Made by a program: the position numbers and the translations under genes
Assembly (NCBI GenBank): GCA_002840735.1
Contig: PHBY01000004.1
Location: forward strand, 248,001 to 312,000
Origin: Chloroflexi bacterium HGW-Chloroflexi-2
GTDB lineage: Bacteria > Chloroflexota > Anaerolineae > Anaerolineales > Anaerolineaceae
DNA length: 64,000 nt
Direction of reading: 5' to 3'
The notes under the pieces: generated by a model
What the model saw: the letters and a program-made list of their open reading frames with translations, nothing else
Told to the model about the DNA's origin: nothing
Database searches by the model: none
Part shown: positions 58,602-59,350 of the stretch, piece by piece
Position numbering within the stretch: the first letter of the stretch is position 1
Layout of the letters: each line of letters opens with the position of its first letter

Positions 58602-58990
58602 GTAGCATTTCTCCTTTCAAATTCTTGTCGATTTGTGATCTGCAAATTGTAAGAAATCACCGCACCCCTTATTAAAGAGCATTGTGAAGGAAAAATCAAG
58701 CAAAAAGTGAATGTATTTGCTTTAAAAATGACCAATAGTTTATTAAGTTAAGTAATACTATATTAAAATTTCTTGATTAATCGCCAGATCCAGCTTCGTC
58801 CCGGCTTGATGGGGATTATCCAGAATGGCTTTCACGTGTTCCTTCTTGACATGAATCAGGACTCCACCCACCTTTGGATCAATTGATTGGATATTCTTGA
58901 AACAGGGATCCTGATCAAATTTTTCCATGGTTGGATGCACAGGGACCACATTGTATCCCTTGCCTTTTAATTCACGGAAAATCGAGTTAC

Positions 58991-58999
58991 CGAATTTTG
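58991..58999. repeat. Left target-site duplication
   Basis: CGAATTTTG directly flanks the foldback element on its left; the same 9 bases recur at 59089-59097. Confidence 0.85.
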
Positions 59000-59088
59000 G
59001 TGTCCTTTCAATAATTAGCGGTCAGGGTGTTTTTGGCGTGCGGACGCACGCCAAAAACACCCGGTTGCCCCGATTTATTGAGATGATA
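59000..59088. mobile_element. 89-bp MITE-like foldback element
   Basis: The centre is an 18-bp perfect inverted repeat, CGCACGCCAAAAACACCC against its complement, with a 2-nt loop (59024-59061). The outer ends are imperfect inverted repeats: 11 of 14 bases match, sharing TCAATAA. It encodes nothing. A 9-bp duplication flanks it. Nine-base duplications are known for several transposase families, including IS4- and IS1-type elements, so it was probably moved in trans; the helper is not in this window and no second copy was seen. Confidence 0.82.
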
Positions 59089-59097
59089 CGAATTTTG
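59089..59097. repeat. Right target-site duplication
   Basis: CGAATTTTG, second copy of the 9-bp target repeat flanking the foldback element. Confidence 0.85.
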
Positions 59098-59233
59098 CAT
59101 CCATTTGGGATACTCCCACAATCGCGATGCGTTTTGAGGCGACAAAATCCTGGATTGCCTGGTTCATTTATAAATACCTCGCGAATTGTGGATTTGGAAA
59201 ATGAATGATAGTTAATAAAGTCAGATGGATTTG

Positions 59234-59266: not shown

Positions 59267-59267
59267 G

Positions 59268-59350
59268 TGGGGCGGGTGGGACTTGAACCCACAAGGTTAT
59301 TCACCGGAGGATTTTAAGTCCTCTGCGTCTGCCAATTCCGCCACCGCCCC
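59268..59350 (-). tRNA. tRNA-Leu (anticodon TAA)
   Basis: The 83-nt minus-strand sequence folds as a class II tRNA: acceptor GGGGCGG/CCGCCCC, D-arm with AATTGGCAGACGC, anticodon stem GAGGA/TCCTC around the loop CTTAAAA (anticodon TAA), a long variable arm, and T-arm GTGGG-TTCAAGT-CCCAC. The 3' CCA is not encoded. The long variable arm and anticodon define leucine. Confidence 0.97.

Follow-up and report, generated by a model that had tools for sequence, protein, structure and literature searches.

What interrupts the CoA-binding-domain gene around position 59000 of our window (the whole 64,000-nucleotide stretch of an Anaerolineaceae genome analysed here), how did it get there, and what part does its palindrome play? 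A sequence-only reading had described the insert as a precisely excisable 89-bp foldback element with a 9-bp target duplication. Our comparisons make it very probable that the insert is a foldback MITE with ends of the type seen in the ISBst12 group of the IS66 family and an 18-bp palindrome, and that it was most likely mobilised by an IS66-type transposase.

The boundaries of the element follow from its sister copies. The exact 9-bp repeat CGAATTTTG noted before is indeed present, at 58991-58999 and again at 59089-59097, but the division into 89 and 9 bp does not hold: the ninth repeated base, a C, is the last base of the element itself and happens to equal the base preceding the target. We aligned 63 rows from the genome of the window (4.1 Mb in 40 contigs, completeness 99.87, contamination 2.54). 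When these are delimited at the element ends, a perfect flanking repeat of 8 bp is found in 39 of the 63 and one of 9 or 10 bp in none. Because the other copies show perfect repeats of 8 bp and never of 9 or 10, we parse the locus as a 90-bp unit (59000-59089, plus strand, GTGTC...GATAC) between two copies of the 8-bp target duplication GAATTTTG, the left at 58992-58999 and the right at 59090-59097. At most one of the 8 bases differs between the flanks in 55 of the 63 rows, against a mean of 1.8 (largest 8) for shuffled partners. Both in this genome and in its relatives the duplications are 8 bp long and AT-rich.

Within the unit, two imperfect terminal repeats of 22-25 bp surround a perfect palindrome of 18 bp. 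The left terminal inverted repeat, GTGTCCTTTCAATAATTAGCGG, lies at 59000-59021 on the plus strand, and the right one, which reads GTATCATCTCAATAAATCGGGG on the minus strand, at 59068-59089. The 18-bp perfect central inverted repeat reported earlier is confirmed, with its plus-strand arms at 59025-59042 and 59045-59062 and the loop centre GA at 59043-59044. The fold of 59000-59089 is far better than that of dinucleotide shuffles (z −8.1 as RNA, −7.3 as DNA), none of 200 being as good. A single departure from the family consensus in 90 bases, together with a flawless duplication of the target, bears out the proposal that the insertion in the window is recent.

The interrupted gene (58758-59167, minus strand) encodes a C-terminally truncated CoA_binding_2 protein, of which the congener G001 has an intact 146-aa orthologue (CoA_binding_2, 7.3e-27). 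In two congeners, G001 and G006 (Anaerolineaceae bacterium isolate KA20), the sequence to either side of the insertion can be aligned; both have an uninterrupted gene with a single CGAATTTTG, so that an empty site does exist in relatives. The claim that excision would restore the reading frame is right locally, as removal of 98 bp yields ...SQMDAKFGNSIFREL..., but the gene remains truncated by a separate deletion: at about 58794 it lacks 134 bp that are present in G001 and G006. As this deletion is out of frame, the gene would end early even without the MITE. Precise excision itself is not borne out, since no excision event was observed and the empty sites belong to other species and are most simply pre-insertion sites. 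They fit an insertion of the MITE after the split from the species of G001 and G006. Two other features lie close to this gene. In KA20, a different, related hairpin insert (GGGTGTTTTTGGGTGGGAAATTTCCCACCC..., L099, G006:C63) is found 3' of the same CoA_binding_2 gene, and in the window a tRNA-Leu (taa) is located at 59267-59350, about 180 bp away from the insertion.

A genome-wide search with the left end, at no more than 3 mismatches, returned 62 matches in the genome of the window and none in a reversed control. On inspection, 60 of these had a hairpin, perfect or degenerate, one had none (L051) and one was one-sided (L096). Together with L011, which was found by similarity only, they make up the 63 rows mentioned above; about 15 further listed copies were left out of the alignment, so 63 is a lower bound on the number of copies. 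Exactly 90 bp are found in 53 of the rows. In view of the different flanks of the 63 rows, most with duplications of their own, we reject an assembly artefact. What we find is thus a short element with no coding capacity, terminal inverted repeats, a target duplication and multiple dispersed copies, as in a MITE. The dozens of copies, the empty site in two congeners and the end-matched transposase of a congener described below uphold the suggestion of a non-autonomous element of this lineage.

Beyond this genome, we drew rows from relatives as well, for a total of 144 rows, two of which (L294, L282) were empty. Of 41 genomes searched, that of the window included, 9 have related elements, and 6 of the 9 belong to the genus. 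The exact hairpin core was found in 2 of 121 genomes of the order, in a draw that comprised the genome of the window and G030 but not the congeners G001-G007, and these two were the ones with the core; the figure is therefore no measure of how widely the core is spread within the genus. In G030, which belongs to another family of the order, the single exact copy (L068, G030:C9:6618-6650) is surrounded by quite different outer sequences. Three variants with similar ends were also seen: a 55-bp element without hairpin (L051, G000:C23:39849-39903) and a 47-bp element without hairpin (L125:2664-2710, in G005), each a single occurrence, and a one-sided MITE left end (L096, G000:C40:3217) that adjoins a separate hairpin with GGGGTGTTTT.

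The insertion in the window lies inside a gene. Among the 40 of the 63 rows with long enough flanks, it is one of 4 copies that fall within ORFs of 100 aa or longer. The remaining 36 lie outside such ORFs, where random positions in the same loci fall in 24% of cases (76% being inside). This placement would suit a hairpin that serves the host, as a terminator, an RNA-processing site or a protein-binding site, with host selection keeping the stem covarying. We regard this as improbable and do not adopt a host terminator or RNA element as our principal interpretation. The stem is not followed by a U-run and the copy in the window interrupts a gene; moreover, an Rfam search at a permissive threshold reached the gathering score only for the neighbouring tRNA, and nowhere at the element.

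If the insert is a MITE, which transposase moves it? The search for a transposase between matching ends succeeded in the congener KA20. The IS66 model of Pfam (PF03050) had matches in 12 of 41 relatives, 10 of them above the cut-off, and in KA20 the element is a complete 1,753-bp IS flanked by the 8-bp duplication CAATTCAT. The 22 bases at the right end of the MITE differ by 1 and 2 from the IS ends, GTATCATCTCAAAAAAACGGGG and GTATCATCTCAATAAATAGGGG; the left end of the MITE is clearly less like them. The only ORF of at least 80 aa inside this IS encodes a 549-aa transposase, which matches DDE_Tnp_IS66 (PF03050) with 2.2e-10 and scores below the cut-off of the NCBIfam IS66 model (105 vs 180 bits). 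The residues D230, D356/357 and E470 are identical in all five aligned proteins. Apart from the two 22-base ends, the IS and the MITE consensus share nothing but short chance words, and the hairpin is absent from the IS; sharing only their outermost 22 bases, the two give no support for a descent of the MITE by simple internal deletion.

With the KA20 protein as query, 10 of 61 genomes had matches, that of the window not among them. A MITE-type end, at no more than 2 mismatches, lies beside 11 of the 14 distinct places with close transposase matches (59-100% identity), the three without one nearby being L198, L200 and L202; none of four distant matches (26-50% identity) has such an end. Further away, in other phyla, two homologues from Nostoc (46-47% identical) and one from Caballeronia (31%) are in elements with perfect 8-bp duplications and ends of the GTATC..CTCA- or GTAACTTCTCAATAA-type, and a Rhizobium homologue showed no clear end pair. 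Among plasmids, 182 records matched the same query, none of them reaching 60% identity.

Several observations concern the ends of these elements in other genomes. In G050, L183:1174-1776 is a 603-bp internal-deletion derivative of an IS66-type element that keeps both ends and residues 3-67 and 440-547 of the protein; its flanks agree at 6 of 8 bases. In G020 (L308-L335), 92 matches to the end of the KA20 IS were found. With the exception of C25:23793, the minus-strand matches listed lie within bases 48-77 of their contigs, and for the plus-strand matches that were fetched the contigs stop about 70 bases past the match start. A high-copy, near-identical element sharing the transposase-3' end of the IS seems to break the assembly there. 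Among the matches listed in a pattern search for end-like sites without hairpin, none had a transposase apart from G001:C51:43716, where an N-terminal transposase fragment is located at the end-like site. Of 12 regions retrieved, L145 and L146 were studied in detail.

A duplication of this length, taken alone, would also be compatible with a MITE from a different DDE family whose duplications measure 8-9 bp (IS256, ISL3 or IS4-like). Our search for partners with MITE ends covered ISL3, IS256 and DDE_Tnp_1. ISL3 was absent from the genome of the window, the only one searched for it; IS256 had 9 matches in 5 of 8 genomes of the genus, where the ends inspected differ and no MITE-end pair was seen; and DDE_Tnp_1 had 23 matches in 7 of the 8, with no MITE-end pair within 1.5-kb flanks. 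As the matching ends are on an IS66-type element, we judge another DDE family to be very unlikely. Classical IS66 matches such as L157-L160 were considered as partners too and are without MITE-type ends. A short palindrome in many intergenic copies might further recall REP/BIME-like elements, with a RAYT (HUH, Y1) as the transposase. This we consider even less credible, as it is contradicted by the 8-bp target duplications (HUH elements are not known to make any) and also by the terminal inverted repeats.

For an ISBst12/IS66 MITE, then, we find ends of the group type, the 8-bp duplication, an autonomous partner sharing the ends, in the congener KA20, and a single IS66-type ORF in that partner. 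A transposase in the same genome is not among the findings: neither PF03050 nor the KA20 protein had a match there, a result that is not final for a draft of 40 contigs. This negative result counts against taking the MITE to be mobile at present. Our proposal is that an IS66-type transposase binds the MITE ends and would move the MITE in trans, and that this transposase may by now be lost from the genome or be unassembled in it.

The palindrome, which has no counterpart in the KA20 IS, shows a history of its own. We examined stem covariation in 52 copies from the genome of the window, 45 of them distinct; L058, which has an indel in the stem, was excluded from this alignment and from the counts of shared variants and private changes given below. 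Of the cells in the inner 18 pairs, 97.4% are paired, and 8 pairs and 18 cells have changed on both sides. None of 500 shuffles had as many changes on both sides, and slid versions of the stem were lower too; the shuffles leave relatedness in place, so their counts are not probabilities. The outer 22 pairs, formed by the terminal repeats, show no excess of covariation, as 335 of 500 shuffles reach their pair count. In an alignment that spans seven genomes with 57 copies, changes on both sides are seen in 15 of the 18 stem pairs. This alignment comprises 5 of the 63 rows from the genome of the window and 52 of the 79 from other genomes, of which 61 had passed the filter for length and ends and 9 of these were omitted.

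Covariation of the stem pairs would be expected from host selection, and template switching is a further alternative to consider. Excerpts of PMC3820800 describe how template switching corrects quasi-palindromes, and as a general process acting on resident copies, unrelated to transposition, it could yield both the perfect stems and the inverted centres to which we return below. The state of the resident stems bears on both alternatives. Stems are perfect in 37 of the 52 copies, whereas 15 contain at least one mispaired pair among the 17 pairs counted; mispaired stem pairs number 24 in all. Variants recurring in two or more copies are 4 of the 8 compensated and 5 of the 18 mispaired ones. Among pairs of copies with a common compensated variant, 12 of 18 (10 of them within one subfamily) also have a change outside the stem in common; for pairs of copies with a common mispaired variant the figure is 0 of 7. 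Because of this difference, the compensated variants appear to have been passed on with transposition, and the mispaired ones to reflect repeated hits.

Strictly private changes affect 17 of 1768 bases in the stem and 33 of 2704 outside, which is no significant shortage in the stem (p 0.47). Considering mispaired pairs alone, the count is 12 of 1768 against the same 33 of 2704, a weak shortage (Fisher p 0.09) in the direction that host selection and template switching in residents would both favour. Against host selection, copies whose duplication is imperfect have mispaired pairs, and likewise changes outside the stem, at about double the frequency, and private stem changes taken together are not significantly rarer; the latter also speaks against template switching in residents, as do the 15 copies with a mispaired pair. 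Neither rank correlation of mispaired pairs with outside changes reached significance (p 0.27 and 0.57). Repair of resident stems is thus not visible, in a sample too small to exclude it, and we consider template switching on resident copies possible, if doubtful. Since private changes are not significantly depleted in resident stems, upkeep or renewal of the palindrome may take place mainly in transposing copies, which is suggestive and not proven.

The centre of the palindrome occurs in both orientations. Among the 53 copies of 90 bp in the genome of the window, GA stands at the centre of 26 and its reverse complement TC at that of 23. Sorted by centre type over all rows, the orientations are in ratios of 12:13, 4:3, 3:2, 5:1 and 1:1, and four further types, of two or three copies each, have one orientation only. 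L003, L008, L014 and L022 are identical to L004 and L006 everywhere except in the centre, and a five-copy GCGAGC group contains both orientations. Judged from these alignments, the centre has been inverted repeatedly. A flip at every transposition gets no support, since four small clusters of sister copies, with two to four members, have a single orientation each (L018/L021/L052/L079, L048/L057, L077/L082 and L020/L024). We infer that the inversion of the centre may be tied to transposition.

How might this come about? The palindrome would take part in transposition in one of two ways: an extruded hairpin could help ends only 90 bp apart to come together, or copying of the hairpin with strand switching could remake the stem and flip the centre in new copies. 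On the fullest form of this proposal, transposition passes through a hairpin or cruciform in which the palindrome can be recopied from itself, so that new copies would tend to have a perfect stem, with or without an inverted centre, and residents would decay. We put this forward tentatively and think it rather unlikely as it stands. If the hairpin-stage reading were true, loop orientation would be a record of an ISBst12-type transposition intermediate. In any case, dozens of sister copies with covarying stems, both orientations of the centre and a named likely transposase amount to a natural experiment, and the family makes a hairpin intermediate, or hairpin-assisted end pairing, testable in very short transposons.

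In the portions of the open-access literature consulted, we found no MITE linked to IS66 or ISBst12, and no MITE of any kind reported from Anaerolineae. The sections seen of PMC3189936, PMC9769881, PMC12888890, PMC9208149 and PMC6053426 contain no MITE tied to IS66 as here; what PMC12888890 describes is an IS66 remnant that contains a MITE whose repeats are 4 bp long. A term search did not find IS66 in the main text of a 2024 review of prokaryotic MITEs (PMC10969869), and no linked MITE was described in the available passages on ISBst12 (PMC8024623, PMC12898284).

Among known elements, the KA20 IS most resembles the ISBst12 group, with which it shares a single-ORF IS66-type transposase, imperfect ends of the form GT(G/A).C...CTCA and an 8-bp repeat. 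According to an excerpt of PMC12898284, ISDge4 of this group has the ends GTGACTACTCAGCA / GTAACTGCTCAGCA, the 8-bp repeat CCTCGATG and a single ORF; the KA20 element has one ORF of at least 80 aa, the ends GTATCATCTCAAWAAA and an 8-bp duplication, and its protein is longer (549 aa vs 449 aa in ISDge4). The MITE of the window differs from the group in having no gene, in sharing only the outermost bases and in a palindrome that is absent from the KA20 IS.

Correia elements, RUP and MITEPsy1 are bacterial MITEs. Like them, the MITE of the window is about 100 bp long, has no gene, ends in terminal inverted repeats and is present in several to many copies; unlike them, it has IS66-type ends and duplicates 8 bp of its target, and its inner palindrome covaries and has a centre that occurs both ways round. 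With REP/BIME elements and their RAYTs it has in common short palindromes scattered between genes, whereas target duplications and a DDE-type partner set it apart. The closest parallel to the centre itself is in plastid genomes, where hairpin-loop small inversions are reported to place the loop between inverted repeats in either orientation; in the MITE of the window, in contrast, the centre varies across many copies of a mobile element.
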